Source: Acarospora socialis (lineage: Eukaryota > Ascomycota > Lecanoromycetes > Acarosporales > Acarosporaceae). Taken from it: DNA of 64,000 nt. Shown in pieces: positions 1 through 24,559 of the stretch (its first letter is position 1; every line of letters begins with the position of its first letter). The translations under genes and the position numbers were made by a program. The notes beneath the pieces were generated by a model that worked only from the letters and a program-made list of their open reading frames with translations, was not told the DNA's origin and searched no databases. The stretch covers positions 682,001 through 746,000 of the forward strand of contig JAMYGW020000005.1 in NCBI GenBank assembly GCA_025617375.2, in the 5' to 3' direction.

Positions 1-1320
1 AACATCACAATGATCTTTTTACAGAACATTTAATTACAGATCAAATCTATACACAAGTTCATGAGAAATACTGATGATCAGAGATGAAAAAACAAATTGA
101 AAACTATTATTTATTCTGTCTTGTATGTCTAAAAGCATAAATAATTTGTGAAAAGTTCACAGAGCAGTTACAGTTCTTAAAATACTCTATACAGTTTTAA
201 AACATAATTATAATGAACTTCATTACAGATCTGTTAGAGAGCAGAGTCTATGAAGATATTTATGATGTGATTTTGAATGTGATTGACAAATTTTTGAAGA
301 TGTGTCACTATATTTCATGTTGAAAGAACATAACTATGAAAAATCTTATGAAGATCTTTGTACAGAAAATAGTTCATTTACATAAAGTTTTAATTATCAT
401 AGTGTCAAATCAGAAATCACTATTTATCTCATGATTCTGAGTTAATGTGATGTATATTTTAAAAATTAAATAATGACTAAACATTATCTTTTATTCACAA
501 ACTAATGAGCAGACAGAGCATCAGAATAGTGTTTTTGAACAATATCTGTAAAGTTATGTCAATTATGAGCAAAATGACTGAGTAATATTATTGTTCTTGA
601 CAAAGTTTGTGTACAATGCAAGCAGACATTTTGCAACTCAAAAAATATCTTTCAAGATGATTTATAAATATCACTTAAGATTCAATTTGTTGTCTGTGAA
701 CAAGATAATTAAGTATACAGTGAAAAAGAATAGCTTCACAGAAGCTGAAACTCTTGCAGATTAACTTTACATCAGTTATAAAAAGACTCAAAGATTTCTC
801 ATAAAAGCTCAAGAGTATCAGAAGAAGTACTATGATAAGAAATGATGAAATATCATATTTAAACTTGAACAAAAGATTTAACTACATATTAAAAACATAT
901 TCATAAAGAAATTCTTGCAGAAGCTGAATTAACTACATTATGAGTTTTATAGAATTATTGATCAGATAGAGAATCAGATTTATAAGTTAAAGTTGTTAAA
1001 AACTCTTAATATTCATGATGTCTTTCATGTCAGTCTACTTTGAACTCATAGATTTCACAAAAATGATGAATTTTCAGAATCTGAATCTTTATATTTAGTG
1101 ATAAACTCAGATTTTTGTAAATATGAAATCATCATTATTTTGAACTCACAAATCATAACAATTCTTGATGAACAGTCAACATTACAATATCAAATTGCAC
1201 AAAAAAGATACACAGATCTAATCTGAAAATCAGAAATTAATGTGAAGAATGTTCAAAGATTAATTAATAAATTTCACAAGAAAAATTCTGAAAAACTCAA
1301 GTCAACACTTACAAAGCTCA
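1..1320 (+). pseudogene. B1 integrase/chromodomain end of pol (remnant)
   Basis: Three-frame reading shows short stretches like the end of a Gypsy-type integrase, followed by the conserved hinge before a chromodomain (around 960-1060, IHDVFHVSLL-like) and chromodomain-like residues around 1110-1310. The same segment appears in inverted orientation in B2 near 19190-19500. This is a fossil with many breaks and no intact frame. The domain assignment is inferred from short motifs and position. Confidence 0.55.
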
Positions 1321-4074
1321 AGAAATTAAAGTCTGACTTGATTTCACTTTTGCACTTACTCACAAAAATTACTTGTCACTCACACTGCATAGAAGTACAG
1401 ACTCTTACAAGTGTTCTTTACTCAGAGTATTGACATTGTGAAATTTTCAAGAAATCAAGATACTAATCAAAAAAACTCAGCAGAGCTTAGCAAAATAGAT
1501 TTGTGATGAAGATTTAACAGTATTGACAGATGTACTTTTACTGTTTGCACTTCTTAGAAAATTCACAAAAAACTGAGAAGAATGACTTGAAAATGATATT
1601 ATTAAACAAAAAAGTTGATATATATTTGATCAGAGAGCAAGAAGAAGATTTATTTTCTTCAATTACAGATGATATTACTTAAATCAATACTTTAAATTAC
1701 ATTTATTAGAAAGTATCTACAGAAAAGAAAGAAAATCAATATATTTTTTTCTGTTGAAGAAGATAAAGTTAATTTATTCTCTTTGATTAATGATGCTGTT
1801 CAGATTAATACTCTAAATCATATTAGTATGAAAGAAATTTACAGAAGAAAGAAAGAAAATGAATTATTATAGTAATGAAAGACATCTCTATTCTTCTAAT
1901 CATGATCTGTTAAAGTATTTTTATATTCTTCATTATTCATGAAGTTTCTTTTTAATCACAAACTATTATAAGATAGTTCACTATTTATAACATATACAGT
2001 TCTGCAGAAACAGACAGTGATAATGTAAAGAGTAAAGATGATGACATTAAATTCAGAGATAACAACTTAAGAAAAAGAAACAGTGACATTATCAGAGTTA
2101 ATGTACATAATCTCATCAAATAAGAAAATGAATCAGACTCTGAAAAAATACTTTCTTTATTTGTATCACTTACAGAAAGCAATGCAGAAACAGATGAAGC
2201 AGATAATGATGATAATAATGTAAAAATAAATAATGATGATGATACAGAAGCAGATGAAAACAATACAATATTGAGAATACAAAAATAATCAACTCAAAGA
2301 CAATCTACACACTTCTGAATATAATTTGAAACATTATTGTAATATTTTACAAACATCTTCTTCTTCTTACTGTTGAGAGCATATGCAACACACTTTAAAA
2401 TGCAAACAATATCTGTCTCAATGATTAGAACAGTCTGTTTATAATACTTATAATGTACAAAACATGACAAAGCATCAGTGATTCAGTACTGATGTTACTG
2501 AGATTGATTTCTCAATGTATACTCATTTTTTGAAGTTTGTGTCTGCAGAAACTGCACACTGAAAACAGTTTTGTGATCAATCAGTATATGACTGAAAAGA
2601 CTTAAATTAATAATTAAACTCAAGAATCACTAAACATTTACAAAGTAAAAAGTCATTATTTAGTTATCTGACACTCACAATGTTAATTAACATGCACATG
2701 ATTTAAAGTTCAAAACAAATCATTTACACATACTCAGTAATGACATTTTAAGTATGAATCAGAGAAGAATCTCTTCACAATTACTCACTGACTATATTTG
2801 ATCTGATTTTGCATGTATAAATGTTATAATGTGAAAAAAAGTTTAGAAAGACACATATTTTGTATGCAAAAAAATTGAAATTATTCACTTTTAATATGTT
2901 TTTGCATTCTGTTCAGAAACTCTTACTTAATTGTAAGTGAAAAGATTTGATGAAAATTTCATCACAATTATAATGATGAAGTTACTCAACTGTAAATGAA
3001 AAGTCTTAACATTTCATTGCAAAAAGATCATCTACTTATTCAGCATAGTCAGATAAGTTTATAAGACATTAAAAATGTTTATGACAGTCAAATAAGTTTG
3101 CAAGATATTAAAAACATTCATGATAGTCAGATAAGTTTGCAAAATATTAAAAACATTCATAATAGTCAGATAAGTTTGCAAGATATTAGAAACATTCATG
3201 ATAGTTAGATAAGTTTGCAAAATATTAAAAACATTCATGATAGTCAGATAAGTTTGCAAGATATTAAAGATGTTTGTGACAGTTAAGTAAGTTTGTGAAA
3301 TGTCAAAAATGTTCATGACAACTAAGTAAACTTGTAAGACATCAGAAACATTCACAACAGCTGAGTAAGTTTGTGAAACATCAAAGACATTTGTGACAGT
3401 CAGATAAGCTTGTAAGATATTAGAAATATTTGTGACAGTTAAGTAAACTTGTGAAATGTCAGAAATATTTGTAACAGTCAAATAAGCTTGCAAGACATTA
3501 GAAATGTTCACAACAGTTAAATAAGCTTGTGAGACATCAGAAATATTCACAACAGTTAGATAAGTTTGTAAAACATTAAAAACATTTATAACAGTCAGAT
3601 AAGATCTGCAGAACATCAGAAATGATTGCAAAATACTGAAGAAGATTTGTAAAATATTGTGAATAATCTCAAGACACTGAAGCAAGTTCACAAAGTATTA
3701 AAAAAAATCTGCAAAACATTATAAATAATTGTAAGACATCAGAAGCTGCTCACAAAAGATTAAAGAAAACTTGTGAGATATAGTGTTCACAAGACATCAA
3801 AAAATGTTTATAAAGTATTGAGACAAGTTCACAAAGCATTGACACAAGCTCATGAAGCATTAATACAAGTTTATAAAATACTGAGATTAAATTATGAAGT
3901 ATTGATTAAGTTAGAATGAGTTAAAGAACTGTCTCAATACTCTTTTTTTCTACAGAATTTTGAATATTGAAGAAGTTTTACTCACTATTTTTTTTCTCAT
4001 TGAAAAGTTTTTTCAACAGAGAGTCAGCTGAAGATAAATGTCATGAGAATGTGATACATAAAAGAAAAAATAAC
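1321..4074 (+). other. B1 long 3' spacer between pol and 3' LTR
   Basis: About 2.7 kb with no recognisable coding domain, ending at the 3' LTR start at 4075. It holds the 39-bp minisatellite (3048-3604) and, after it, a looser run of related AT-rich repeats up to about 3900. The equivalent stretch of B2 is about 16710-19190. Such a long stretch after pol is unusual for a Gypsy element and could be an acquired or untranslated region. Confidence 0.6.
3048..3604. repeat. 39-bp minisatellite inside B1 (about 14 units)
   Basis: Tandem array with a 39-bp period: successive units begin with GTCAGATAAG-like sequence at 3048, 3087 and so on to 3594, giving 14 periods. Because 39 is a multiple of 3, the minus strand reads as a 13-residue repeating peptide, but this is a by-product of the repeat and not evidence of a protein. 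Units differ mainly by C/T and A/G changes. The same repeat occurs inverted in B2 (about 17205-17450) with fewer units. Confidence 0.85.
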
Positions 4075-4146
4075 TGTAAATTCACTCTGATTTGTGAAGA
4101 ACTAGAGCTTTTTTGTGAGATCTTGCATAGTTAGTATGTTTAGTAA
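4075..4146 (+). repeat. B1 3' LTR, first piece
   Basis: The first 72 bp of B1's 3' LTR, starting TGTAAATTCACTC. It ends in the AGTAA target copy where A1 is inserted. The LTR continues at 16499-16515 and 24454-24559. Confidence 0.85.
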
Positions 4147-4477
4147 TGTTACAACCATAATCTATATCAGCTTAGCATAATTAAGAGTTTACAAAGACAA
4201 CATGATATAGAGCATGAGAATTTGATGCTGCAACACATCAAGTAATCAACTTAACAGATTAATCAGTCAAGTCATGAACTCAACAGTTCTGACAGTTAAG
4301 TTCTTTCTATATAGTAGAATTGTTTTTCTTATAAAAACAGTCATGTTCAACTTCAACATCTAGCAATAGAGTTACTATCTACTGATTTACTCAATCATAC
4401 TATACAAATCATTATATCAACAAGCACAAATCTCTAATTCTAACATACTCAAGATATTTTAGATCTAAAATGTAACA
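4147..4477 (+). repeat. A1 5' LTR
   Basis: 331 bp beginning TGTTACAACC and ending TGTAACA. Same family as the A2 LTRs read on the opposite strand. Confidence 0.9.
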
Positions 4478-4529
4478 CTTTAAACACTCTTACAATATAA
4501 TATGACAATGTCTGATACACAGAAGAACA

Positions 4530-7500
4530 TCTTCACTGTATTACTTGTAGCAAGTTAAATTGAAGTCACTCAACAGACAGATATGATTATCAATACATTT
4601 AAGATCAAAACATCTGACAACTTCATCAGAAAGTGTGAAAAGCTTCAATCATTTCTAACTTAACTGAATCTATACATTGACTTCAATGTACAGAAGTTTT
4701 CTAGTGATATAGACAAGATTCTGTTTGCAGCATTTTATCTTAGAAATATAGCATTTGATTGAATTAACTCACTTATGAGAAAATTTATTGACAAGACTTC
4801 TAAAAAAAAGCAAGAAGATACTGAGTTTATGTTCAACAACTACTCTAAGTTTAAAGAAGAAATAAGAAGAATCTTTGAGATCATTGACAAAAGAAGAGTG
4901 ACTAAGCAATATATTCACATCTTACAACAAAACAGATCAGCAGCACAATATGTAACAGAATTTCAACAAGCAGTGACATTAACAGAATGAAAGAACAATG
5001 CTTTGAACTTTGTATTCTATTGAGAACTCAAAGAATTCATCAAAGATGAAATTGTCAGATCTGATAGACTCAATGACTTATAAAGCATCATTGATTTTGT
5101 GATTAGTATTGACAGTCATGTGTGAAAAAGACAACAAGAAAGAAAGAAATTTCAACTCAGAAAATATATATCTGAATACACTCAAAGAAATATGTATAGA
5201 AGATTGTCACAGACACAATACTCAGACTCAATAAATCTCAATATAATCAATAGAAAATGACTATTGACACAGAGATTCAAAGAAGCATTAAAAGAAAGAA
5301 ATGATAGATTCATGAAGAAAAAACTCACAAACAAGATTGAAACTCACAAGTGCTACAATTACAATAGAATTGAACACATCACAAAAAATTGCTGAAGATC
5401 TCAAAAAGAAAGAAAGAAAGCTGCAATCACAACTAAGAAGATAGTGTATGACAATCTTAACTGAACAGCTTGTTATGATGACATGTGCTGAGTACACATG
5501 AGCATCAAGAATGAAGTCAAGCATTATTCAAAGAAGTCATGTCAGAAACAAGAAACTTACAATATTACAGAATGATCTAGATCAGATGACACTGTGAAGA
5601 AGAAATTGCATGTTTTTAATGTCAACATCAAAGAAATAGATAATTGAGAAACTCAGAAAATTAATTACTTCAAGATTAATACTGAGTCAGAAACACTTGA
5701 AGAAGACTTTATCTTTATTTGATTCAACTTTGACAGCAATGAAGACAGTAAAGACAGAGATTGAAAAGAATAAAAGACAATGCATGAAGACATAAGAATA
5801 AAAAAGCAAATTAAAGTCATAGTAGTCAGACAGAAACTTAAATCTTCACAGAATCAAGATACAACAATGATTTAAGAACAGTTTGAACTCTTTAAGATAA
5901 GAACAAGAGTAAAAGAACTTTGACATGAAATCAATTAAGAAAAAGCTCTACAGACTGAGAGAGATTGAAGTTAATGAATTGAGAAATTGCTAAAGAATGT
6001 TCAAGTGATGAAGTTTCACAATCAAATCATGCTCAGAGAACTGATATGAAAGATTAAGAGTTATAAGATAGAAATCTGACTATCAGAAAAATACATCACT
6101 ATCAATTAAAAACAATAAATCTGAACAGAAAAATACATCTCATCAGAATTTCTGCAGAGAGTAAGAACTCTAGAAACATGACTGCAGATGAAATATAATC
6201 AATATGAATCACAACTACATCTCAAGAAACAAGTCAGAAAAAACAGTACAGAGTATACAAGTTTACTGAGCAGTCAGAAGTCAATATGATTCAAAAAGCT
6301 ATGAAGAAGAGCAGAAGAAGTGATGAAATTAAAAAACTGCAAGCTTTCTCAATGAAACTAGAGAACAAGAAGCTTTTAATGTCTCACAGACACAGAAATA
6401 ACAAAATAATGATTAAGATGAACATTGAACAGAATGATCATCTGTTAAAAACAATAAAAGTTTTAGTTAATTCAGAAGCAACAAATAACTATATTTCAAA
6501 AGTAACAGTATAATATTTGAGACTTTGATCAATACAGACACTTTATTCAGCATGTGTACACATGATCAATGAAAGCTACAAGCACATTGACAAGAAAGTA
6601 CATGTACAAGCAGACATCAATGAAAAGTGTCAAGAGATGACACTAGATGTCATGAAGTTAATGAAGTACAATGTTATACTGAATATGTTGTACTTGAGAA
6701 ATTGAAATCTCAAGATTGACTGAATAAGCAAAGAAGTGTGCAAATTGAAACATACATATGAAATCTCAAAGCAATCAGAGATGTACTTGTCAGAACACAA
6801 GTCATGAAATCATGAGATACTGCTATTGAAGAAAGAACAATTTAAGTGAATGTCATTATATTCAATGAGTGAGAATTAACTCAAGAAAGTATAAGCTTAT
6901 CTTGATGAGAATCTCAAAAAAGAATTCATAAAATCATCAAAGTTACTGACAGAATATCTGATTCTGTTTGTATTAAAGAAAAATAACAAGAAATGATTAT
7001 GTGTTAATTATAAACAGCTTAATAACATAATCTGACAAGACAGTTATCTTTTATCATTGATAAAAGAACTGCAAGACTGACTAAACAAGACTAAGTGATT
7101 TATCAGCTTAGATCTTAAGAACATTTATTACTGAATAAGAATGAAGAAGAGTAAAGAATGAAAAACAGTATTCTGAATGAGATACAGACATTATGAGTAC
7201 ATTGTCATGCTGTTTAAGCTCAAGAATGCTTCAATTATCTTTTAGAGATTAATTGATGACATATTGAGAAAATATCTCAATGATTTTGTAATCACATATC
7301 TCAACAATATTCTGATATATTCAGAGAATCTTGAAAAACATCATGAGCATGTGCACAAGATACTGAACAAGCTCAAGAAGAAAGTCTTATATGTGAAAGA
7401 ATCAAAAAGCAGATTCAAAACTCAGAAAGTAAAATTTCTAGAATATGTGATTTGATCTGAATGCATTGAAAAGAATTTAGAAAAAACTGCAGCAGTTAAA

Positions 7501-9420
7501 CACTGATCAACATCAACAAGAATTAAGAAAGTACAGATCTTTTTAGAATTAATGAACTATTATTGAAAATTTATATCAAACTATTTAAGAATAGCAGAAT
7601 CTCTCATGTAATTAATACAAAAGAATGAAAAATAACATTGAGACAAAAAACAGAAACAAGCATTCAACATATTGAAGAGAAATCTTAGTGAAATGACTCA
7701 TCTCATTATATCAAATGCAGCATGTAAAAAGATACTGAAAACTGACACTTCAAATTTTACAGTTAGTGCATGTCTATATCAGATTGAAGATGAACAACAA
7801 AAACTCATAGTATTTTGATCTAGAAAACTGTCAGAACTCAAGAAAAGATATGAGATTCATGATAAAGAACTTCTTACAATAGTGAAAGCACTGCAAAAAT
7901 GAAGATCTTATCTTGCAGAAATGAAAAAATCAATTCAGATCTATACTGATCACAAGAATTTAAGAAACTTTGCAACAACTAAACAGTTAAACTACAAGCA
8001 GATTCACTGAACAGAGTTGTTAGCAGACTTTGAATTTCAGATTCATTACAAGAAAAATAATAAAAATGATGAAGCAAATGTCTTAAGCAGACAATCTGAT
8101 CATGAAGAAGTGAAATGAGTTCACACTGAAATTTTAAGTGAAGACAAAGAAGAAATTCTCACAAAAAAACTATCAGTGATATACAAAATAGAAAATGCTT
8201 TCTTATCAGATGAAAAACTCATCAAGATATGTCACTACAGCAGAGTCAAAGAATATCTAGAAGTCAAGTGCACAGAAGATCTTGTGCAAAAAAAACACAA
8301 CATTGACAATTTTAGAAACTGAATCATTCAGATGATTGTTATGTGCAATTCATACTAAAGAAATAAGATTAATTAAAACAAACAATATAATGAAATAACA
8401 TAACTAAATGCATCAGATGCATCATGAAAGTCAGTTATCATAAACTTCATCACAAAGTTATCATCATCAAAGAACTCAGCATGAGAAGTGAAATTTGATA
8501 GTATATTGACTATAGTGAATAAATTAATCAAGTACATCATGTTCATTTCATTCAGAGAAACTGTGACAGCATCAATATTGATATACATTATACTGTGAAA
8601 ATTAATTAACAACTATGAGCTATCAAAGAAGTTTATCATCAACAGAGACAAACTGTTCACAAGTAAGTTTTGAAAAATGCTCATGATGAAACTCAGAATA
8701 AAACACAAAATGTCAATAATATATCACTTACAGACAGATGAACAAAGTGAATGAATAAATTAGATAGTGAAAACATACTTGAAACACTATGTCAACAAAA
8801 ATCAGAACAACTGAGTATGACTGTTGTTTATGATACAGTTTGTGTACAACAACATGAAGAATGAGATCATAGAAGAAACATTCTTCTATGTGAATTATAA
8901 CTATAACTCAAAGATATGATGAGATTCACAAGAACATGAATTACAAAGTCAAAGAGTGATACTAGATATCAATGAACTAAAGAAACTACATTAAAACTTA
9001 ATGACACAAATCAGACAACAAACAGAACAAATAACAACAGCAGAATCATTTAAAGAGAAAAAGAAGATATACTTAAAAACAAACAACATATGCATTAAGA
9101 GAAGAAGCAAAAAGCTAAATAACAAGAGCATTGAATCATTCAGAATCAAATGAAACATCAAAGAACTAAGTTACAAATTAAATCTATCAAAAGAAATGAG
9201 AATACACTCAATATTTCATGCATTCATGCTACAACATTGCAATCAGTTCATATCATCTCAAATTTTTGAAACATCTGTCAAACTCAATGAAGAATATGAA
9301 ATTAAGAACATTTTAAAGAAGAGAATGATTAGAGAGAAAATTCATTATCTTGTTAAATGAAAAGAATATGATATCTCAGAAAACACATGAAAACTCAAGG
9401 AAAATCTTAAGAACTGTGTG
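4530..9420 (+). pseudogene. A1 gag-pol remnant with chromodomain
   Basis: Gag-like residues lie at about 4530-5400, including a capsid-type stretch (4775-4990) and a zinc-knuckle-like Cys/His cluster near 5346-5395. A protease-like motif (LVNSEATNNYIS) is near 6460-6500. RT is at about 6880-7480, RNase H at about 7700-8060, integrase at about 8150-9240 and a chromodomain-like segment (EYEIKNILKKRM) from about 9290 to 9420. The order is the Gypsy order (RT, RNase H, integrase) and the terminal chromodomain marks a chromovirus. This is a fossil with many breaks. Confidence 0.8.
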
Positions 9421-9978
9421 AGAATGCTTTGACATTTTAAGAAGAAAATAAAGAATTAGATTGTCAGAAATTGACTGACATTGCATTAAATAACTGAGAT
9501 AAGATCTTAGTAAAAGAATTTTCAACTGATTTCTCATTACTCAACAACTTCTGCACAAGACAGAGAGTTTTTGCTTTTGCACAATCTTTTGTTTGTTGCA
9601 ATATCTTGTGAAGATGATTTAATTTGACAGCAACACAGATCTACTCAGCAAGAAGTTAAAATTGTTCAGTTTTCATCTTCAAGATATCTGATTCAAGTTT
9701 ATTGCAGACTCTATTGAGAGTCTCTTATAAAACATCAATGCAAGAACATTTACAACAAGTGCATTCAGCACATTTCTTATAATCATTCATTACAATACAC
9801 AGATAAGATCAAGAGAAACAGTAATGACAGAACATCACTGAAGAATGATTTAGAAAGTTGATTTCTTTGACAGTACAAAGACAATTGTCAAAAAACATGA
9901 TGATGATGAAGCAGAAAGTGCTTATATACTCTTGCTTATAAAGATTTAGAGAATTAATGTCTAAGAGAGAAAAAATAA

Positions 9979-10114
9979 TGTTATGATCATGATTTATATC
10001 AACTTAGTGTAATCAAGAGTTCATAAAAACAGCATGATATAGAACATGAAAATTCAACACTGTAATATGTTGAGTGATTAACTCAACAGATCAATCAGTC
10101 AAGTCATTAACTCA
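9979..10114 (+). repeat. A1 3' LTR, first piece
   Basis: The first 136 bp of A1's 3' LTR, ending with the ACTCA target copy (10110-10114) where A2 is inserted. It continues at 16299. Confidence 0.88.
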
Positions 10115-10474
10115 TGTAACATTTTAATTTGAGATTTCTTGAGTATGTAGAACTAAGAATTTGTGCTTATTGATATACTGACTGATCTGAAACAGTTTTG
10201 ATCTTTAATTCTTAGATAATTATTTAAGTTGAACATGATTGTTTTCATAAGAAAAACAACTCTACTATATAGAATGTGCTTGATGCTTCTGTGTTGAGCA
10301 CTCTTGATGTTTTAATGTCTTGATGTTGAGAAATTGAGTCTCAGCTTGTCTGCTTGTCATCAAGTTATTATGTTATCACATGACTACTGTCTAACAGTTC
10401 TTCTTATACACACTTCAGATAAACTTCTGATCACAGATTTATGAGTTTCTTTCTCTTCAAACATAATTGTAACA
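10115..10474 (-). repeat. A2 3' LTR
   Basis: 360 bp starting TGTAACATTTT and ending TTGTAACA on the + strand. It pairs with 15934-16293. Confidence 0.9.
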
Positions 10475-10999
10475 TCATTTTTTCTCTTCAGATGTTAGTT
10501 CTCTAGAGTCTATTTAAACAAGAGTATATAACAATTTCATCACTAGCAACAATGCTTTCTAAAAATTTCAATTGTCTAAGAATCACAAAGAAAATTCAAC
10601 TCAGTGATAGTCTCATCACATTCTTTTGTGAATTCTGTACTGCTTGTGATCTTAATTGCTTTGTTATGATTGATGAAAGATCAAAATGTAATAAGTGTAT
10701 TCATCACAATTGTTCTTGTATTGCAGTTTTGTGAAAGTCTCTCAACAGAACTCATCTTTCTCTTCAAAAGAAAATAAATGATGCAAATACAACTCTTAAT
10801 ACTTTTACTGTTAAGATGATGCATCTTCAGAAAACTTTAAATCAGATAGATTGTTGTGCTGTGCAAAAGACTGACTGTTTTGCTGCTGAACTTGATAGTG
10901 ATAATGATGAAATTGAGAATGAAGATTCTCAAACAATGTTATAACTTGTTAACTCAATGTTGTCATTCTTCTGAACTAATATTGACTTCTTTTCTTAAA

Positions 11000-13900
11000 A
11001 CATTGAAGTGTTCTCACACAGTTCTTGAGATTCTCTCTGAATTTTCAGATGTTTTCTAAGATATTATAATTTTTTCACTTAATGAGATAGTGAACTTTTT
11101 CATTAATCATTCTCTTTTCTAAAATGTTCTCAACTTCATATTCTTCTTTGAGTTTGACAGACATTTCAGTGATTTGAAGTGATATAAATTGATTGCAATG
11201 CTGTAACATGAATGCATAAAATACTGAGTGTATTCTTATCTTCTTGAGTAAATCTAGCTCATAGCTTAACTCTTTGATGTTTTATGTGATCTTGAATGAT
11301 TCAATGCTCTTGTTCTTCAGCTTCTTGCTTTTTTCTTTAGTTTTTATATTGTTCATTTTTAAGTATATCTTTTTTTTTTTCTCAAATAGTTTTGTCTTTA
11401 TCATTTGTTCTGTCTGCTGTTCAATTTGTTTCATTAAATCTCAATGCAGTTTCTTCATCTAAACAATATTCAGAATCACTTTTTGACTTTGTGATCTGTG
11501 TTCTTTGAGATCTCATTATATCTCTGAATTATAATCATAGTTCACATAGAAAGATGTTTCTTTCATGATTTCATTTCTTGCATTGTTGTATGCAAACTGT
11601 GTCATTAATAACAGTCATACTCAGTTGTCTTAATTTCTGTTGACATAATGTTTCAAGTACATTTTTATCATCTGATTCATTCATTTACTTTATTCATTCA
11701 TCTGTAAATAATATGTCATCAACATTTTGTGTTTTATTCTGAGTTCTGCTGTGAGCATTTTTTAAAATTTGTTTGTGAACAGTTTGTTTCTATCAATGAT
11801 AAACTTCTTTAATAGTTCATAATTGTTAATCAATTCTTGCAGTATAATATACATCAATACTGATGCTGTCACAGTTTCTTTGAATAAAATGAACATTGTG
11901 TACTTAATTAATTTATTTACTATCATCAGTATACTGTTGAATCTTATTTTTCATACTGAGTTCTTTGATGATGATAGCTTCATGATGAAGTTTATGATAA
12001 TCAACTTTCATAGTGCATTTGATGTGTCTAGTTGCATTACTTTGTTATATTGTTTATCTTGATTGATCTTGTTTCTTCAACATGAATTGCACACAGTGAT
12101 CATTTTAATGATTCAATTTCTAAAATCACTAACATCATATTTTCTTTGCATTAAATTCTCTGTGCACTTGATCTCTAAATATTCATTAACTCTGCTGTAG
12201 TAATACATCTCAATAAGTTCTTTGTTCATCAAGAGAGCTTACTTCATCTTGTATATTGCTGCTAAACTCTTTGTGAGAACTTCTTTGTCATTTTTGCTTA
12301 AAATTTCAGCATGTATCATCTGTACATCTTCATGATCAGATTGTCTACTTAAGATATCTGTTTCATCATTTTTATTATTCTTCTTGTAATGAATCTAAAA
12401 TTCATAATCTGTCAACTGCTCTGCTCAATGAATCTGTTGTTGATTAAGTTGTTTTGTCATTGTGAAGTTTCTCAAATTCTTATGATCTGTATAGATCTAA
12501 ATTGACTTGTTTGTTTTTGCAAGATAAGATCTTCAATTTTATAGTGTCTTCACTATTGCAAGAAGTTCTTTATTATGAATCTCATATCTTTTCTTGAGTT
12601 CTGATAACTTTCTAGATCAGTATGCTATGAGTTTTTGCTGCTCATTCTCAATTTAATACAAATATGCTTTTACTGTGAAATCTGAAGTGTCAGTTTTCAG
12701 TGTTTTCTTACATGCTGAATTGAATATTCTCAGATGTGTTGTTCTGTTAAGATTTCTCTTTAATATGTGAAATGCATTCTTCTGCTTTTGATCTCAATGT
12801 TATTTTTTGCTTTTGTGCATCAAATGTGTTAGTGATTTTGCAATTCTTGTGTAGTTTGATACAAACTTTCAATAATAATTTGTTAGTTTTAGAAAGATCT
12901 GTACTTTCTTGATTCATTTTGATGTTAATCAGTTTCTGACTGCTTTTGTTTTCTTTGAATTCTTTTTAATTTGTTCAGATTAAATCACATAATTTAGAAA
13001 CTTAACTTTCTGAGTTTTGAATCTGCTTTTTGACTTTTTCATATATAAAACTTTCTCATTGAGTTTTATCAATATTTTATGCACATGCTCTCAGTATTTC
13101 TCAAGATCTTCTGAATATATCAGAATATCATTAAGATATGTGATTACAAAATCATTGAGATATTCTCTCAACATATCATTGATCAATCTCTAAAAGATGA
13201 CTGATACATTCTTCAATTCAAATGACATAACAATATATTCATAGTGTTTATATCTTGTTCAGAACATCATCTTTCATTCTTTATCTTTTTTCATTCTAAC
13301 TTGATAATAAATGTTTTTAAGATCTAAGCTTGTGAATCACTTAGTCTTGTTTAGTCAGTCTTGCAACTTTTCTATCAGCAGTAAAGAATAACTATTTCAA
13401 TAAGTTATCTCATTGAGTTGTCTGTAGTTAACACATAATTGTTTTTTGTCATTTTCTTTGATATGAACAGAATTGAATATTCTGCTGATGACTTTAATGA
13501 TTTTATGAATTTTCTCTTCAGATTCTTGTCAAAATAAGTTTTAACTTTCTTGAGCTGATTCTCACTCATTGAGTATAATGACATTTACTTAGATTGCTTT
13601 TCATTCAATAGCAGTATTTCATGATCTCATGACTTATACTCTAATAAACTCATTTCTGATTGTTCAGAAATCTTGTATGTGTTCTTGATTACACATATCT
13701 TTTTTGTAACTCAGTCAATTCTCAGATTTTTTCTGTGTAATCAGAGCATCTTTAGTACTGCATCATATTTAATTGACTTCATAACATTAAACATTATTTC
13801 TTGTGAGTTTTCAAGAATTGAGACTTTCACACAGATTTTCTCATCAATTCTTTCAATGACTTTATTCATCATTCATATGTTGAATAAATAACACACTCAC

Positions 13901-15941
13901 TGTATCTCTAATCTCAACATGCTGACTGTCTTTTAATTCATAATATTACTGTTTGCTTCAGAATTCATCAATGCATTGATTTGATGTTCATTGATTGTGA
14001 TCTTGATTCATATTTAATGATTGTTGTCTTGTCTTTGAGATGTCACTAGCTTTTTGTTCTCTAGTCTTATTAAGAAAGCTCTTCATTTTTTGACTCACTT
14101 GATCATTTGACTCATCTTCAAAGTTCTTGAAATTATCTTGATTCTCTTTCAATCATAAGATTCACATACTTTAAACTGTGTCACTCAATGTATCTTTTTA
14201 AGTGTAGTCAGAGTTTATACTGATTGTACTTTATCTGCAACTGACTCTTAAAGACTTTTACTCTTTGCAGAAATTCAGATGATATATATTCTCTGTTGAA
14301 AATTCATTTGTCTTTATTCTGTATGATATATTCTTCAGATAAGTGTATCTTAATCTTGTGACTCTTGATTTTTTACACAAGAAATTCAGATATTAATTCT
14401 TTTGTAACTATTTGTATGTCTCTCATCAGATCATCAAATTCTTTGTATATCTCTGCTTTTTGATTTTAAGTCTTTTGTTTTTTCTTCTGCATCATATTGT
14501 GATCTGATGTCATTTTTTTTTGAATACTTAAATTTCTTTTGATCTTTGTTCAGTACTCTCTTGAGAGTTCTATCTCAATATTGTTTAAACTTTCTTCTGC
14601 AAGTGCATCACTATTGAAGAATATTCAGAATTTGTTAATCTGAAATTTATGATCATCAGTTTCTTTGATGTCATCTTTGAGAACATTATTTTCTTTCTCA
14701 ACATCAAGAACTCTTTTCTTGATAAGAATAGCTAATTCTTTCTTGTAGATTGATCAATTCATTGTGTTGTATCTGTTCTTCACATCTTTATATGATTTCT
14801 GAAAATATTATTTGACTTCATCTTTTGTACTCATGTGTACTCTGCACATGTCATTGTAACAGACTGTTCAGCTGAGAATGTTATGCACTATGTGTGTATT
14901 CTTCTTAATTATCACTGCAATATTTTTTCTTTTCATCTGAGATCTATTGCATTCTTGAACAAGATGTTCAGATTTTCTGCAGTTGTAATATGTTCATATC
15001 TTGTTACACAGTGTTATCTGAGACTTAGTGAACTGCTCTGACTGATGTTCATACTTCACTCATTTAGTCTTTCATGACTTCTGATGATGCTTCTTGATTG
15101 TATTGAGATTTATAGAATTTGTCTTTCTATATCTTATTAATAAAACATATTGCTTTGTTCATAATCAGAAGCTTTCTTCTTGATCTTTTATCATAGATGA
15201 CATTCAATACTCTTTTTATTTCATCTGTCATTCTCACTGACAACTGTCAATATTAATACTCAAATTAATCATTCTCTGAAGATTGTCTGATTGTTCTGTT
15301 TGAATTATTTTATCTTTGATGAACTTTTTTAACTCACAATAGTACTGATAAATGAGTGCTTCATTATTTCATCTGATAAGTGTTGTTAATCACTGAAACT
15401 CTGTGATGTATATTGTTGCTGATTCACTCTGTTGCAAAATGTGAACTTATTTTTCAGCTGCTCTTTCTTTGTCAATTACTCTGAAGACTTTTCTTAATTT
15501 TTCTTTAAACTGTGCATAGTTATTGAACATAGACTCTGTGTCTGCATTGCATTCTTCATATTTTTTTTTTAGAAACTCATGCAGCTTAAAGTTGACTCAG
15601 TTGAAGACTGCATTCACAAGATAGATCATTACAAACAATGTTTTTTCTTGATTGATTTAAAACTTCAGTTGATTAAATTCAATGTACAGATTGAGTTTAG
15701 TCACAAAGATTTGCAGCTTTTCTCTCTCTTCATCAAAGATATCTGATATCTGTATCTTTGATACATTTAAAAGTAGTTGTATAGCTTGAGCTGACATCAT
15801 CACTGATTGTGTCATCATTCTATCTAAAGTAAATAATAGAGATGAATTTGTCTGAGTTTGTTTTAAGAATGAAGATGAGATGTTCTTTTGTGTGTCAGAC
15901 ATCATACTCATTATATCATAAGAGTGTTCAAAGTGTAACAT
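11000..15941 (-). pseudogene. A2 gag-pol remnant
   Basis: Read on the minus strand. The amino-terminal gag-like frame (15657-15941, ...SSFLKQTQTNSSLL...) starts just inside the LTR. The RT core lies around 12950-13500 and matches A1's RT in inverted order, RNase H at about 12380-12750 and integrase at about 11150-12330. A chromodomain start (EYEVENI-like) is near 11100-11135. Same gene order as A1. Many breaks; fossil only. Confidence 0.78.
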
Positions 15942-16293
15942 TCTAATCTGAGATTTCTCAGATATGTAAAGCTAAGAATTTGTGCTTATTGATATAACAA
16001 TTGATCTGAAATGATTCTGATCTTTAACTTTTAAATGATTATTTAAGTTGAATATGATTGTTTTCATAAGAGAAATAATTCTACTATATAGAACATGCTT
16101 AATGTTTCTGCATTGAGCATTCTTGATGTCTTGATGTCTTAATGTCAAGAGATTGAGCTTCAGCTCACTTGCTCATCATTAAGTTATTGTGTTGTTATGT
16201 GACTACTGTCTAACAGTTCTTCTTGTATGTGCTTCAGATGAACTTCTAATCACAAACTTGTGAGTTTTTTTCTTTTTAGACATGGTTGTAACA
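15934..16293 (-). repeat. A2 5' LTR
   Basis: 360 bp. It ends on the + strand at TTGTAACA next to the ACTCA duplication at 16294-16298. Confidence 0.9.
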
Positions 16294-16298
16294 ACTCA

Positions 16299-16493: not shown

Positions 16494-16498
16494 AGTAA

Positions 16499-16515
16499 GT
16501 TAGTCTTTGCAAAGA
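16499..16515 (+). repeat. B1 3' LTR, middle piece (17 bp)
   Basis: GTTAGTCTTTGCAAAGA continues the B1 LTR between the A1 and B2 insertions. Its last five bases are the AAAGA target copy of B2. Confidence 0.82.
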
Positions 16516-16709: not shown

Positions 16710-17204
16710 GTTGTTTTTTTTCTTATGTGTCACATTCTCATGATATTTATCTTCAGCTGACTCTCTGTTGAAAAAACTTCTCAATGAGAAAAAAAATAGT
16801 GAGTAAAACTTCTTTAATACTCAAAATTTGTGAAAAAAAAGAGTACTGAGACAGTTCTTCAGCTCATTCTAGCTTAATTAATACTCTGTAATTTAATCTC
16901 AATGTTTTACAAATTTGTGTCAATGTTTCATGAATTTATCTTAATACTTTGTGAGCATTCTTCAATGTCTCATGAGTGCTATGTTTTGTAAGTTTTCTTT
17001 AATCTTTTGTGAGCAGCTCTCAGTGTCTTACAATCATTTACAATATCTTGTGAATCTTCTTCAATACTCTGTGAACTTGCTCTCAGTGTTTTGCAATCAT
17101 TCACAATATTTCACAGATTTTTTTCAGTGTCTTATAATCATTTTTAATGTTCTGTGAGTCTTCTTCAGTATTTTGTGATTATTTATGATATTTCATAGAT
17201 TTTA

Positions 17205-17450
17205 TTCAGCTGTCACAGACATCTCTGATGTCTTACAAGCTTACTTAGCTGTCACAGACATTTCTGATATCTTACAAACTTACTTAACTATTGTAAATGT
17301 CTCTGATGTCTTATAAACTTATTTAACTGTTATAAACATTTTTAATATTTCACAAACTTACTCAGCTGTCACAAACATTTCTAATGTTTTATAAACTTAT
17401 TTAACTGTCATAAATGTTTTTAACATCTTACAAACTTATCTGACTGTGCT
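17205..17450. repeat. 39-bp minisatellite inside B2 (about 6 units)
   Basis: Inverted counterpart of the B1 array. About six units of the 39-bp repeat (…GTCACAGACATTTCTGAT…) can be read. The copy number is clearly lower than the 14 units in B1. Confidence 0.8.
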
Positions 17451-19189
17451 GAGCAAGTGAATAATCTAATTACAATAAAATGTCAAGACTTTCTGTTTAC
17501 AGCTGAATAACTTTATCATTATAATTATGATGAAATTTTCATCAAGTCTTTTCACTTACAGCTGAATAAGAGTCTCTGAGTGAAATGTGAAAATGTATTA
17601 AAAGTGAGCAATTTCAATTTTTTCACATACAAAATATATTTTTCTAAACTTTTTTCTGCACTGCAACATTTGTACACACAAAATCAGATTAAATATAGTT
17701 AATGAGTAATTGTGAAGAGACTCTTCTTTGATTTATGTTTAAAATATCATTACTAAATATGTGTAAGTGATTTATTCTGAGCTTTAAATCATGAGCATAT
17801 TGATTAACACTGTGAGTGTCAAATAACTAAATAATAACTTTTCACTTTGTAAATGTTCAGCAGCTCTCAAGTTTAGTTGCTGATTTGAGTTTCTTTAACT
17901 GTATACTGACTGATTACAAAATTACTCTTAATATGCAATCTTTGTGAACACAGACTTCAGAAAACAAACATATATTGAGAAATCAGTTTCAGCAACATCA
18001 ATATTAAATTATTGATACTCTGCTGTGTTTTACACACTGTAAATACTATAGACAGATTGTTTTAATTGTTGAGACAGATGTTGTTCACATTTTAAGATGT
18101 ATTGTGTGTACTTTTAACAATAAAAAAAAAAGATATTTGCAAAATGTTACAACAATGTCTTAAATTATATTCAGAAGTGTGCAGATTGTCTTTGAGTTGA
18201 TTGTTTTTGCATTTTTAATGTTGTGTCATCTTTATCTACTCTTACATCATCATCATCATTCATTTTTACATCATCATCATCATCATCTGCTTCATCTGCT
18301 TTTACATTGCTCTCTGTAAATAATACAAAAGAAAAAGATACTTTTTCAGAATCTGATTTGTTTTTTTATCTGATGATGATTATGTACACTAACTTTGATA
18401 ATATTGCTGTTTCTCTTTTCTGAATTGTCATTTCTGAATTTAATATTGTCACTTTCACTCTTCACATCATTGCTGTTTGTTTCTGCAGAGCTGCATATGT
18501 TGTAGACATTGAATTATTTTATGACAGTTTGTGATCAAGAAAAAACTTCATAAATAATGAAAAATATAAAGATACTTTAACAGATCATAATCAAAAGAAC
18601 AAAAGTGTCTCTTATCACTATAATAATTCATTCTCTCTCTTTCTTCTGTAAGTTTCTTTTATATTAATATGACTTAAAATATTAATCTGAACAGCATCAT
18701 CAACTAAAGAAAATATATTGATTTTCTCTCTTTTCTATAAATACTCTTTAATAAATATAATTTAGAGTATTAATCTGAGTAATATCATCTATAATTGAAG
18801 AAAATAAATCTTCTTCTTACTTTCTGATCAGATATGTGTTAACTTTTTTATTTGATGACATCATCTTCAAATTATTTTTCTTGATTTTTCACAAACTTTC
18901 TGAGAAGCACAAACAGTGAAAATACATTTGTCAATATTGCTAAATTTTCATCACAGATCTATTCTGCTAAGCTTTGCTGAGTTTTTTTGATTAGTATTTT
19001 GATTTTTTGAGAATTTTATAATGTCAATACTTTAAATAAAGAACACTTACAAGAGTCTGCACTTCTATGCAGTGTGAGTGACAAGTAATCTTTGTGAATG
19101 AACACAAGAGTGAAATCAAGTCAGACTTTAATTTTCTTGAGCTTTGTAAGTGTTGACTTGAACTTGTCAGAATTTTCTTTGTGAAACTT

Positions 19190-22100
19190 GTTAACTAGTC
19201 TTCAAGCATTCTTCATGTTAACTTTTGATTTTTAGATTAGATCTGTGTATCTTTTTTATGCAATTTGATATTGCAATGTTGACTGTTCATTGAGAATTAT
19301 TATGATTTACAAGTTCAAAATAGCAGTGATCTCATACTTGTGAAAATCTAAATTTATCACTAAATATAAAGATTCAGATTCTGAGAATTTGTTGTTTTTG
19401 CAGAGTTTATGAGTTCAAAATAGACTGACATAAAAAACATCATGAATATTAAGAGTCTTTAACAGCTCTAACTTATAAATCTGATTTTCTACTCAATCAA
19501 TAATTCTATAGAATTTATAATGTAGTTAATTCAGTTTCTGTGAGAGTTTCTCTATAAATATGTTTTTAATATATAATTAAATCTTTTGTTCAGACTTAAA
19601 TATGATGTTCTGTTATCTTTTATCATAGTATTTCTTCTGATACTCTTGAACTTTTATGAGAGATTTTTGAATTTTTTCACAACTGATGCAAAATTAATTC
19701 ACAAGAGTTTCAGCTTTCATAGAGCTACTTTTCTTCACTATATACTTGATCATCTTGTCTGTGAACAACAGATTAAATCTTAAGTGATATTCATAAATTA
19801 TTTTAAAAGATGTCTTTTGAATTATGAAATGTCTACTTACATTGTACACAAATTCTGTCAAGAACAATAGCACTGTTCAGTCATTTTGCTCATAGTTAAC
19901 ATAATTTTGCAAATATTGTTCAAAAACATTATTCTGATGCTTTGTCTGTTCATCAGTTTGTGAATAAAAGACAGTGTTTAGTTATTACTTAATCTTTAAA
20001 ATATATATCACATTGATTCAGAATCATGAAATAAACAATGATTTCTGATTTGACATTATGACAGTCAGAATTTCATGCAAATGAACTATTTTTTGTACAA
20101 AGATCTTCACAAGATTTCTCATAGTTATGTTCTTTCAACATGAAATATAGTGACACATCTTCAAGAATTTGTCAATCACATTCAAAATCACATCATAAAT
20201 ATCTTTATAGATTCTGCTCTCTGACAGATCTGTAATAAAGTTTATTGTAATTATGTCTCAGAGCTGTATAAAGTATTTTAAGAGCTGTAACTGTTTTGTG
20301 AGCTTTTCACAAATTACTCATACTTTTAGACATACAAAACAAAATAAACAATAGTTCTCAATCTGTTTTTTCATCTCTGATCATCAGTACTTCTTGTAAA
20401 TTTATATATAAATTTAATTTGTGATCAGATGTTCTGCAAGAAGATTATTGTGATGTTTTTGCAATATTTCATTGTGCAAAGCTTTTACATACAAAATATA
20501 CATCACATCATTAACATAGAGAAGATCTCTCACCTGCATTTAATTAAGATATTAACTCTCTTTTCTTAATGTCTCAGTAGTCTTCAGACTCTGAATCATC
20601 TTGTTTGTAAGAAAATTTACTCAAAAATACTCTGATAGACTTTCTAAAAGAGTTTTACTTATATTTTTATATGTAATTTTCTTTGCAGCAGCTTCACAAA
20701 CTTATTATTTATGATTTTTATTCTTTTAATCTGTGCAGTCTGCACTTAACAGCTGTTTAATTTGCATACAAACTCAAATATGCACTTCATAACTTACACT
20801 TGCATTCTGTTTGTTCTCTGCAGCAGTTATTGTTGTTAAGAATAGAATTTTTTTTAATGTTGAGCAATACTTTATAATAATATTCTTTACTTTAATCTTT
20901 CATCAGTAATTGACTCTCTGAGATGACTTATTTATGAAATTTATAATTTTCTTGCAATACATCATACAAAAATTGTATGCTAATAGCTGCAGAGCTCATT
21001 TTACATGTTTTTGTGACAGTTTATAAAATAATTTCACTATTTAACACAGATTGTCATGATCTGTAAGAATCTCAACTGTATGTTTTGTTTCTTTGAGATA
21101 ATATTATCAGTGATGAACACTTTCAACTATAACAAACAGCTCTTCATCATCAGTTTTATAATTTTTCTTCACAAATATTATCTTTCACAAGTAGTACACA
21201 ACTGATCTTCAATCATTGTGTCTTTACATTAAAATATCAGATATAACAAATTCTGAAACATCTATTTTTACTTGAATTTTTTTTTCTGAATTAAAGTGTC
21301 TTAGAAAAGATACTGTTGTAAAGATTTTGATTAGTTTGCAAAAAAAATGTGCAGTTTTCAAGATCAGAAATTCTGATATCTGCAAGATTAGTTTTTTCTT
21401 TAAAATGTTTTCACTGTCTTTCAGCATGCTTGTAAGTTTCACAGCAATGCAAGAAAATTTATTTATAAATCTTTTATAGAAGTTCATGAAGTCTATAAAG
21501 CTTTAAATTTCAAAAATATTTTTTGACTCTGATCAGTTGAGAATCATAATGATGTAATCTTTTTTCATCTTCACTTCTTTATTTATAATGATAAATCTCA
21601 CAAAAAATACTCTTTTCACAGAGAACTGATACTTACTGAACTTTACATACAATTTTACTTTTAAGAGTGCTTTTAAAATGATGTAAACATGTTGTTCATA
21701 TTTATTTTCATTTTTGAAATAAATCAGAATGTTGTTCAGAAATATTATCACAAAGATGTTTAGATATTTGTGAAGTATCTTGTAAATATATAACTGAAAG
21801 ATTGCTGATGCATTGATTAACTTAAAAAACATTATTAAGTACTTATACAGTTCATACTAAGTACAAAAGACTGTCTTTCATTCATCATCTTTGCAGATGT
21901 GAATTCAGTAGTAAATGTTCTTTATATTAATTTTTGTGAAGATCTTGATCTCATTTATATGATTTATGATTTTCTCAATTAAGAGTAAGAAATAATGATT
22001 CTTTGTAATAACTGCATTGAGTTCACAGTAATCAACACATAATCACAGCTTACTGTTGAACTTAAGTGCAAATAACACTGATGCTTTCACAGAAGACTGC

Positions 22101-24180
22101 AAGAATCAAATGAAATTATTTTTTAAATTTTTATTCAAATATCTTTGAAACTCTGTGAACTTCTTTTCTAAGAGATTATAAATAAAGCTGAAAAGTGAAA
22201 TCTGTTCATTAATTAAGTCAATGACATGATTCTGCTTGTAATGCAGAAACAAGTTATTAATTTTGCTTTCTGAAAATATCTTCACAAGATTACAGTACAA
22301 TTCTGAAATTTTTACTTGAGTTGTATCATTCTGATTCTCTGCATGCTCTATGTGAACTTGATATATTTGATTTGAATTTTTGAACTTTGACTTCTTCATG
22401 AAAACTTTAAAATTTAATTCATCATTATTCTCTGACTCTGCAGAGTCTTTCACATTTTTTCTTTAAGTGAAAGTTTGCTGAAAGTAGTTTATTACTAAAT
22501 TTCTTCAAGTTAGTCAGATCACTTTAAATATCATATTAGATTTTATTTCTGTGATTGTAAAAGATTCATGATGTTTACAAATTTTCTCATTGTCATTGCA
22601 GATGAAGATCTATTCATGATATACATTATATATGATCATCAGTTATTAATTGATATCAACAGCATTTCTCACAAAAAACAAAAATACTAAATTTAAAATT
22701 ATAACTATGTTCAGATGCAGAAAGTTGATGTTATTTTTGCTGTTCATCATTGTTTATAATTCTTACTTCACAAAATATATCACAATTTATAGAGCTTTCT
22801 TCTTAAGAAGATTCAACTGAGAAAACTTATATGTTTTGTGTACAGTTTCTTTCTTAAAAGACTCTGTCTTTGCAGACTTTTTCTTTGTCTTTTCAGTGAT
22901 ATTATTTTTTTTTGAGAATTCATATACTCTATAAAAACTTCACAAACTTTCTTTGTTTGCAATATTCACAGAAGATTTATTCTTCTTGATGTTTCAGCAG
23001 TTTTTTGTGAGATGATTAATTTTGTTGTAATTGAAGCACTTAATAGATTGATTTTTATCATTCTGAGAAACTTTTTTCTTGAGTTTTATTGTAGATTTAT
23101 CATTAATCTTTTGAAAAAACTCAAACTTCTTTTAATAGAATGATGCTTTTTTTTACTTACAAAAAAATAAATTGAGCTGTAATTTCTTCATGAAAACTAT
23201 TATGTTCTCTTTGATATTAAATAGCTCTGATTATTCACAAATCTTTTTGTACATAAGTTTGTTTAGATTGCAATAGAAGAGTATGATTTAAATCTTATTT
23301 ATCTTGTTTACTTCACTCTTTATCTGAAATTGAAGTTCATTATAATGACAAAAATATTTTTCATTTAACTTTTCATCTCTTTTACTCACTCACAATCACT
23401 TCATTCAGATATTATGAATTCAATTTGTTTTATTTTTTAATAAATTTTTTAAAAATTTCTTCAAGAGTTCTCATTCTTCTACAAGCTCTTTTTCTTTGCA
23501 GTATGTTTTTTATTGATTCATGATGAAGTAATGTAAATGATGAATTATCTTTGAATACTGAGTCTTCTTTGACATATTCTCTGTACTGATATTCATCTGA
23601 TGACAGAAATCATAATAATAACTGTAAATACTGCTTTTATAGAGATCTGTACTCAAGAGTATTTTTATGAATTAAGTTTATTTAATTTTACAATCTATCT
23701 TTAGATTTATAAATTCAAAATAATCATATTTAATTTGTGTGCAGAGTTGCAGATTTGTATGTTTTTGCTTTGTGAACTGAATTTTTAATTTTAATTTGCA
23801 AATCACAGTATTTTCTGAGAACTTCTCAGATTCTGATATCTTCATAAAAATATTTATTATTTTATAAAGAGATTCTTTACTTTTCTGTGAAGTATATTTG
23901 ATCTTGTGAACAACTTTTTCAGATTTATGAACTTGTTTGTTGATTTTGTAAAATATAATTTGCATTTCACAGACTTTAAGTTCATTCTCTTCTTTTTTTT
24001 CTTCATCATTCAATATTTGTAGTATAAAGTTCTCATTATTTTTAAGTTTGTCAGTAATTAATTCATGAACATTTTCAATAAAATCATTTACAAAAACTTC
24101 AAACTTCTTCAGATGCTCAGATTTCTCTTGTATTACAAAATTCTTTAATTTTATTTCTTTTACTTACATGATTCTTTCTG
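19190..24180 (-). pseudogene. B2 gag-pol remnant
   Basis: The clearest fragments are an RT fragment at 21533-21832 with a catalytic-box-like YLNIFVIIFLNNILIYF stretch, the RT/RNase H connection at 21224-21487 (NFYKRFINKFS) and the linker before RT at 22106-22453. A gag-like frame lies at 23678-24013 and a CCHC-like cluster near 22990-23060. The layout is that of fungal Ty3/Gypsy elements. Many breaks; fossil only. Confidence 0.78.
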
Positions 24181-24254
24181 TTCTCTATGAGAATTGTTTT
24201 GATTTTGAAGTCATTGTTGAATAACTGCTTCATGATAAATTAAAGTAACAATAT

Positions 24255-24448
24255 TGTGAGACTGATCTTGACAATTATGTGATAATGAACTTTAAGAGTT
24301 GAAATGCATAAATAGAATTGTTGTTAGTTTTTGCAAAAGAAAAAGTGTGCACTTTTATCTCTTTGCAAAGACTGACTTACTAAGCATATTAATTATGCAA
24401 GGTCTCACAAGAGAGTTCTAGCTCTTCACAAACTGAAGTGGGCTTACA
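24255..24448 (-). repeat. B2 5' LTR
   Basis: 194 bp, followed on the right by the AAAGA duplication (24449-24453) and then by the resumed B1 LTR. Confidence 0.9.
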
Positions 24449-24453
24449 AAAGA

Positions 24454-24559
24454 GATAAAAGCACACACTTTTTTCTTTTGCAAAGACTAGCAACAATTCT
24501 ATCTATGCATTTCAACTCTTAAAGTTCATTATCACATAACTGCCAAGATCAGTCTCACA
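24454..24559 (+). repeat. B1 3' LTR, last piece
   Basis: The final 106 bp of the B1 LTR, ending CAGTCTCACA. Together with 4075-4146 and 16499-16515 it gives 195 bp. It marks the right end of the LTR stack. Confidence 0.85.

Follow-up and report, generated by a model that had tools for sequence, protein, structure and literature searches.

The 64,000-nucleotide window analysed here (contig C5, JAMYGW020000005.1, positions 682,001 to 746,000 of the forward strand) comes from the genome of Acarospora socialis (Ascomycota; Lecanoromycetes), whose sequence amounts to 31.1 Mb in 38 contigs. It opens with an AT-rich block of nested retroelements, positions 1-24559, from which CpG and CpC/GpG have been removed on both strands. 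The best explanation, to which we assign a probability of about 0.7, is that any C preceding G or C (CpS) on either strand of the repeats of this fungus is turned into T by a defence resembling repeat-induced point mutation (RIP) with CpG and CpC as its targets, likely of the RID type. Below, C1, C2, etc. denote contigs of this genome and L-numbers denote pieces excised from it.

Dinucleotide composition of the block

Dinucleotide ratios were calculated as observed/expected, with the expectation taken from base composition, and the block was compared with the host gene region 26600-63500 as a control. The earlier note, made from the letters alone, had reported no clear CG and only a handful of CC/GG in 24.5 kb, and the full count bore this out: CG 0, CC 5, and GG 5, where about 464, 488, and 441 were expected, respectively. 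Its statement that CA and TG are kept was right in that both are enriched (CA 1885, 1.52 of expected; TG 1815, 1.50), and had to be amended in that CpA and CpT are subject to mutation as well, at a far lower rate (65/318 and 89/332 in the comparison given in the next section). Further ratios were CT 1.24, GpC 0.98, TA 0.63, and TC 1.36, at a G+C content of 0.275. In the control, all 16 ratios fell within 0.72-1.15 (CG 2427, CC 2364, GG 2571).

TpA is not raised (TA/AT 0.71 in the block vs. 0.70 in the control), and (CA+TG)/(AC+GT) amounts to 1.54 vs. 1.15; the hand tallies of the earlier note (about 2:1 for (CA+TG):(AC+GT) and about 1:2 for TA:AT) pointed in the right direction and were slightly too strong. 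Neither the CpA depletion nor the raised TpA/ApT named as grounds for rejecting its claim was found. Both standard RIP indices, with the thresholds as quoted in PMC3828140, score the block as "no RIP", as the note had expected. Classical RIP at CpA is ruled out for this block by its composition, by the direction of mutation, and by the stop codons presented below; a loss of CpG only is likewise ruled out, as CC was lost just as fully.

The block extends upstream of the window to approximately C5:671,800, which gives a total of about 35 kb. At its right end, the near-absence of CC/GG stops at 24,401, where these dinucleotides start to reappear, and the repeat edge lies at 24,559, as in the earlier note. 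The searched stretches of the block are all multi-copy, and composition is normal in the host part of the window.

Direction and sequence context of the mutations

The direction of change was determined with L030 (C14:278000-280500), a Gypsy-type copy with a G+C content of 0.473, which is less mutated than its counterpart on the minus strand of the window (5718-8214) and forms a gap-free alignment of 2497 bases with it. From L030 to the window copy, 533 changes were C to T or G to A, against 79 in the reverse direction and 20 transversions. None of the 89 CG was retained, 39 having become CA, 38 TG, 10 TA, and 2 other dinucleotides; as in RIP, C-to-T change is found on both strands of the repeat. 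Similarly, 0/291 CC were retained, compared with 253/358 CA. Where the 3' base was the same in both copies, C had changed at 164/164 CC, 77/77 CG, 65/318 CA, and 89/332 CT. In the copies examined, mutation runs from C to T, follows the 3' neighbour, and is saturated in old copies. As L030 has already undergone some mutation (CG 0.65 and CC 0.98 of expected), part of the changes at CA and CT are second hits at old CG/CC sites.

Among the 91 CCA of L030, 68 turned into TCA and 3 into CTA, which shows that the mutating C is the one with a C on its 3' side; a rule based on the 5' neighbour is thereby ruled out. The 5' base had a small effect at CC and CG (ACG 23/44, CCG 27/46, GCG 14/27, TCG 33/61), and at CA/CT a C after a 5' pyrimidine was mutated somewhat more often. 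The 5' T preference of the basidiomycete type (TpCpG) was not observed, since TCG behaves like ACG. These data also bear on editing of retroelement DNA by an AID/APOBEC-like cytidine deaminase: C-to-T change in the CC context on retroelements resembles the action of APOBEC3G, yet deaminases of this kind recognise the neighbour on the 5' side of their target, and the mutation of the first C of CCA, the little effect of the 5' base at CC/CG, and the equal conversion of CG to CA and TG render this origin highly improbable. Methylation induced premeiotically (MIP), i.e., methylation without mutation, does not describe the block, because its repeat sequence is mutated.

Comparisons with element A, a long terminal repeat (LTR) retroelement of the block (Table 1), gave a concordant picture. 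In an alignment of eight copies covering its 5' 2.5 kb, 919 of the 965 variable columns were C/T or A/G, and opposite the 32 residual CC before A/T the other copies had TC 123 times, CC 64, CT 24, and TT 12. When L030 was compared with two element A copies and L031, another less-mutated relative, with one, the changed fractions (CC 0.74-0.75, CG 0.50-0.53, CT 0.37-0.40, CA 0.23-0.32) followed the order of the window comparison and were noisier; CG stays at about 0.5 here because it mostly loses one of its two C.

Recent mutation and silent sites in LINE copies

Ten copies of a long interspersed nuclear element (LINE), located at ten sites on nine contigs, were chosen from 150 listed RVT_1 matches, five without a stop codon and five with one or two, and form a young, non-random subset; nine of them are 96.7-99.8% identical to L026. 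Changes were polarised using columns with a minority base in at most two copies. C to T was found in 58/125 CC and 6/10 CG columns vs. 13/440 CA and 10/348 CT columns (CpS vs. CpW, i.e., C before A or T; Fisher p = 4e-41), and T to C in 14/1729 columns. The count across all ordered pairs of five LINE copies gave the same context order, and the rule in these recent copies is the one seen in the old ones. The earlier note had suggested that C turns into T where G or C comes next, and the L030 comparison, the ten LINE copies, and the silent sites of L026 (see below) agree with it; tabulated by 3' neighbour in aligned copies, transitions fall mainly at CC/CG and far less often at CpA.

The youth of these copies is important for another explanation, according to which CG and CC are kept methylated at all times in silenced repeats and deaminate slowly, without premeiotic sensing of repeats. 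DIM-2-like and DNMT5-like genes are present, and the target cytosine in the Neurospora DIM-2 complex has a C 3' of it (PMC11315935). However, Neurospora DNA methylation occurs in all contexts according to the same source, which leaves the sparing of CA unexplained, and LINE copies less than 4% diverged have already changed at 58/125 CC vs. 13/440 CA columns; we regard this explanation as quite unlikely.

In L026, 1000 codons are open and include the RVT_1 and RNase H domains, and the other nine LINE fragments have 1-9 stops in the best frame, a number of which may lie beyond the gene or past a frameshift. At the third codon positions of L026, the C:T counts are 82:79 where A follows, 38:62 for T, 8:82 for C, and 1:98 for G, a context pattern absent from the two host open reading frames (ORFs) examined. 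NCG codons number 0 vs. 130 NCA. The 103 proline, glycine, and tryptophan codons, each of which forces a CC/GG, compare with 158 CC/GG in total, the corresponding values for three host ORFs being 167/436, 72/330, and 215/602. Most of this silent-site pattern is expected from silent decay under the same mutation, with the protein under selection. As the silent sites follow the CpS rule, the LINE has likely been exposed to the mutation for long, and it has likely been transmitted over the long term with selection holding its coding sites.

A more far-reaching reading, which we offer tentatively and at somewhat less than even odds, is that the RIP methyltransferase inverted its 3' specificity from CpA to CpG/CpC and that the LINE, gathering at the centromere of each chromosome, recoded itself in response. 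On this reading, CpG is nearly absent from its silent sites and avoidable CpC is scarce there, and the attackable remainder is largely the CC/GG forced by proline, glycine, and tryptophan codons. The authors of a Microbotryum study have suggested that selection may favour elements shedding target sites (PMC5381629). Two tests for avoidance were made in L026. A third-position C before A/T is not itself a target, so its rarity after a second-base C (16/61 vs. 104/200 after other bases, p 0.0004) favours avoidance. The second test, third-position G before a codon starting with G, gave 14/75 vs. 42/157 and was not significant (p 0.19). The evidence for active recoding as opposed to passive silent decay is mixed, which lowers the odds of the recoding reading.

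Among the matches listed, LINE matches with long open frames cluster about once per large contig, i.e., at 2.65-2.80 Mb on C1, 1.99-2.00 on C4, 1.54-1.59 on C5, 0.65-0.69 on C6, 1.32-1.36 on C7, 1.25-1.26 on C9, 0.19-0.26 on C10, 0.01-0.09 on C14, and on others. This suggests that the clusters mark centromeres.

Flanks, genome-wide trace, and simulation

In the copies examined, the signature is restricted to repeats and a few hundred bases of their flanks, a confinement with leakage that is also characteristic of RIP. About 0.4-0.6 kb is affected on each side of the block, the search for copies having covered the right flank only. No second copy of 24581-24940 appeared among the matches listed (40 of 175 candidates scored), and the mutated right flank (Table 1) is for this reason read as probable leakage from the repeat; it might also be an old, unrecognised repeat. 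In the left flank, CG is 0 from C5:671,201, and CC+GG per 200 bases number 14, 11, 3, and 3. In both flanks, CG was lost before CC.

This gradient could be taken as a trace of two processes, in which CG disappears through the usual deamination of 5-methylcytosine, its methylation being maintained by DNMT5 or DIM-2, and CC through a separate, RID-driven mutation. CG loss reaches farther into both flanks than CC loss; in 500-base windows of 34-42% G+C (45 windows, many in LINE copies), CG is at 0.11 of expected and CC+GG at about 0.75; CG in L030 is similarly lower than CC (0.65 vs. 0.98 of expected); and a DNMT5-like gene is present. Nevertheless, a single enzyme preferring CG over CC gives the same gradient, and the fractions changed in recent LINE copies are alike (CC 58/125, CG 6/10), both reaching 100% in old copies, and we consider two processes unlikely.

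Stop codons are absent from 23 of the 150 RVT_1 matches listed, and the rest carry 499 stops, namely 418 TGA, 60 TAA, and 21 TAG. An excess of TGA is expected under the CpS rule with its 3' neighbour (CGA to TGA, TGG to TGA); RIP at CpA is expected to yield TAA and TAG (PMC3828140).

Within the first 10 kb of contigs, the signature is present in parts of C1, C2, and C5 and partially in C3 and C12, and absent from C15, C20, C30, and C38. One of six 2-kb samples taken from chromosome interiors carries it. Three AT-rich pieces, L017 (C38), L021 (C15), and L014:1-4000 (the start of C1), have 24-34% G+C, retain CC, GG, and CG, show a TA/AT ratio of about 1 or higher, and lack the CpS signature; an organellar origin is possible for C15 and C38. 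C30 has 66-72% G+C in its first 10 kb (L019) and is possibly a bacterial contig, and the start of C37 (L018) reads as N over 10 kb. A native composition of the organelle or centromere type, or an assembly artefact, could be suspected from the organelle-like 27.5% G+C of the block; given that the AT-rich starts of C15 and C38 lack the signature and that copies on many contigs agree, we leave it next to no probability.

Simulated mutation of host DNA with a 30-fold preference for CpS led to a G+C content of 0.277, with CA 1.60, TG 1.63, TA 0.63, and TC 1.45 of expected, compared with 0.275, 1.52, 1.50, 0.63, and 1.36 in the block. A CpS-only model without CpW mutation fits worse (G+C 0.352, TA 0.38).

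Methyltransferase genes

The PF00145 matches in the genome fall in three genes, RID-like on C2, DIM-2-like on C3, and DNMT5-like on C8. Genes resembling two of the types that the earlier note had proposed to look for, RID and DIM-2, were found in this way, and a gene of the RID type (Dnmt1 class I), another hallmark of RIP, is present. The PF00145 match of the RID-like protein is limited to 2-160 and 253-324, in which it resembles the shortened domain of class I methyltransferases (PMC4352252). No close solved structure was found for the RID-like protein (best E 1e-11), and the best solved chains for the DIM-2-like protein are 9bap/9baq, its nearest named proteins being called Dim-2. Among the relatives listed, identity reaches 92-93% for DIM-2-like and 86% for RID-like. 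The nearest named relative is from Pleopsidium flavum, a lichen fungus of the Acarosporales (DIM-2-like 74%, RID-like 70% identical over the region used), and A. socialis is on this basis likely a lichen fungus too. The DNMT5-like label is based on methylase and SNF2 matches. PC is the usual motif of the methylase catalytic loop, and the DNMT5-like piece L007:3904-4695 has FSC at this place, which puts its activity in doubt.

The RID-like and DIM-2-like proteins were each compared with 120 relatives listed. In the N-terminal part of the RID-like protein, 11 positions deviate from residues that 85% or more of the 109 more distant relatives conserve; R759 (for K) and L776 (for R) are common to all 11 nearest relatives, and others to most. 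On these alignments, R759 and L776 are a possible lead for the changed target. In the DIM-2-like protein, nine positions deviate (90% rule), some of them common to its nearest kin.

Evaluation of the proposed mechanism and its significance

Under the mechanism we propose, a cytosine methyltransferase, likely RID-type, would target CpG/CpC in place of the classical CpA. CG goes first and its loss extends farthest out, with CC next, and changes at CT and CA are roughly 15 or more times less frequent than at CG/CC. We infer a methyltransferase as the agent, its RID-type identity, its premeiotic action, and a single process for CG and CC. The earlier note had located the difference in the RIP/methylation machinery itself, and a different context preference of this machinery does seem likely.

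Several points weigh against this explanation. The first concern the mutation data: the gap-free alignment was obtained with a single less-mutated relative, L030, in which comparison CA and CT changed at 20-27%, and true CpW mutation can be no higher than this because L030 was already partly mutated. An excess at CC is absent between L030 and L031 (CC 0.11-0.14, CA 0.10, CT 0.17-0.20, CG 0.19-0.22); both are little mutated, and support for the CC rule comes from the mutated copies and from the LINE. The rates of the simulation were set by hand, once, without fitting, and CG and CC could be two processes, CG going first.

Further points concern the enzymes. Published work associates RID with CpA/CpT and Masc2-type enzymes with a CpG bias (PMC4352252); a Masc2-type gene, the third type named in the earlier note, was not recognised among the three PF00145 genes, whose classes were assigned without a class tree. 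In Neurospora DIM-2, the DNA contacts around the target are R1145, T1164, T1166, T1167, D1173, and R1175 (PMC11315935), and the DIM-2-like protein has identical counterparts at all of them (hand count along the alignment); with these contacts intact, RID seems the likelier carrier of the change. Judged by local alignment with 23 covering relatives, the C-terminal piece of the RID-like protein looks ordinary, having one unusual residue, which is not shared by its nearest kin. No residue change in the RID-like or DIM-2-like protein could be tied to specificity, and the changed positions, not placed on DNA, serve as leads only.

RIP is usually detected by indices of CpA loss and TpA gain, which are negative here despite saturated repeats, and genomes scored as RIP-free need re-screening. 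A CpG/CpC variant would mean that the target rule of RIP can be nearly reversed in an ascomycete with a RID-type gene, and it would provide a natural comparison for the residues that set RIP specificity. The silent sites of the LINE illustrate the persistence of a mobile element under such mutation. If both inversion and recoding were true, an arms race at the level of dinucleotides would be visible in one genome, and RIP specificity would be an evolving trait.

Retroelements and other features of the region

The block consists of two opposite-strand copies of element B, one of them split by an element A, and of a second element A, with a minus-strand Gypsy-type relative of A lying between (Table 1). 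The first 2.5 kb of element A have at least 41 other near full-length matches (78-86%; 40 of 659 candidates scored). An imperfect palindrome forms the end of element B (24255-24559), and its terminal part, 24449-24559, is 88-96% conserved at many sites; longer B matches reach 78-86%. In the host region, a single ORF of 596 aa (31849-33639, minus strand) combines an isocitrate/isopropylmalate dehydrogenase domain (120-347) with an isochorismatase domain (413-566), a pair that looks unusual.

Table 1. Coordinates of the features discussed (window positions unless a contig is given).
Feature	Position	Strand	Remarks
AT-rich block, nested heavily mutated retroelements	1..24559	both strands affected	dinucleotide counts, repeat matches
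Remainder of second, opposite-strand element B	1..3310	+	continues beyond the window's left edge, where an element A interrupts it
Gypsy-type relative of element A	4400..9443	-	outer limits approximate; 5718-8214 aligns gap-free to L030
Element A, LTR retroelement, ~6.19 kb	10112..16297	+	LTR pair ~10115-10474 and ~15934-16293; second copy at C5:672557
Element B, retroelement with RVT_1 and weak RNase H fragments	17181..24559	-	domain and repeat matches
Flank, partly mutated	24560..25000		CG 0 (expected 13.3), CC+GG 8 (27), CA+TG 75 (50)
Host gene region, unmutated control	26600..63500		counts normal; host ORFs with Pfam domains
RID-like gene, two exons	C2, L006:1757-4216 and 4254-4661		PF00145 match

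Comparison with known systems

In the literature searched, no report was found of a joint CpG and CpC target sparing CpA; the Coccidioides papers and the 2011 survey of ascomycete RIP lie outside it, and an earlier report of CpC is possible there. A survey of ten genomes distinguished CpA, CpT, and CpG signatures and linked the CpG one to Masc2-type genes, and its main text does not mention CpC (PMC4352252). A 2025 survey of 1,239 fungi states that RIP-like defences share a preference for CpA, and Lecanoromycetes are not among the four classes comprising its 130 species with strong recent signals (PMC12543289). In Monacrosporium haptotylum, repeats show no decrease of CpA and a raised TpA (PMC3828140).

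Particular systems share some of the features described here. Microbotryum and other basidiomycetes have CpG targeting of retroelements, but Microbotryum prefers a T on the 5' side, and the available text does not list CpC among the targets (PMC2621366, PMC5381629, PMC4352252). Rhizoctonia solani AG8 has a CpG bias and, among the four CpN, the shortest spacing of changes at CpC (Table 2 of PMC4014442), whereas its hypermutation affects genes and repeats alike (PMC4014442). Cladonia rangiformis is, as A. socialis likely is, a lichen fungus, and it shares sharp-edged AT-rich retroelement blocks, RID, and DIM-2; its repeats, however, peak at about 16% G+C, and the terms CpA, CpG, and dinucleotide are absent from the main text (PMC12542154).

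Among further ascomycetes, CpG is the strongest target in the MATE elements of Aspergillus nidulans, as it is strong here, but CpA is the second target there, CpC being unnamed in the available text (PMC2621366). The repeats of Stagonospora nodorum are depleted of CpC, GpG, and CpG, as is our block, yet CpA/TpG are depleted too, TpA is increased, and CpA to TpA is dominant (PMC2621366). RIP of Trichoderma reesei also has CpG as a strong target, although CpA is about equal to CpG and CpT exceeds CpC, which comes last (PMC5496416). Finally, RIP of Neurospora crassa likewise changes C to T on both repeat strands, and homologues of its RID and DIM-2 are present in A. socialis too, but its order of preference, CpA > CpT > CpG > CpC (PMC5496416), contrasts with that found here, in which CpG and CpC stand far above CpT and CpA.

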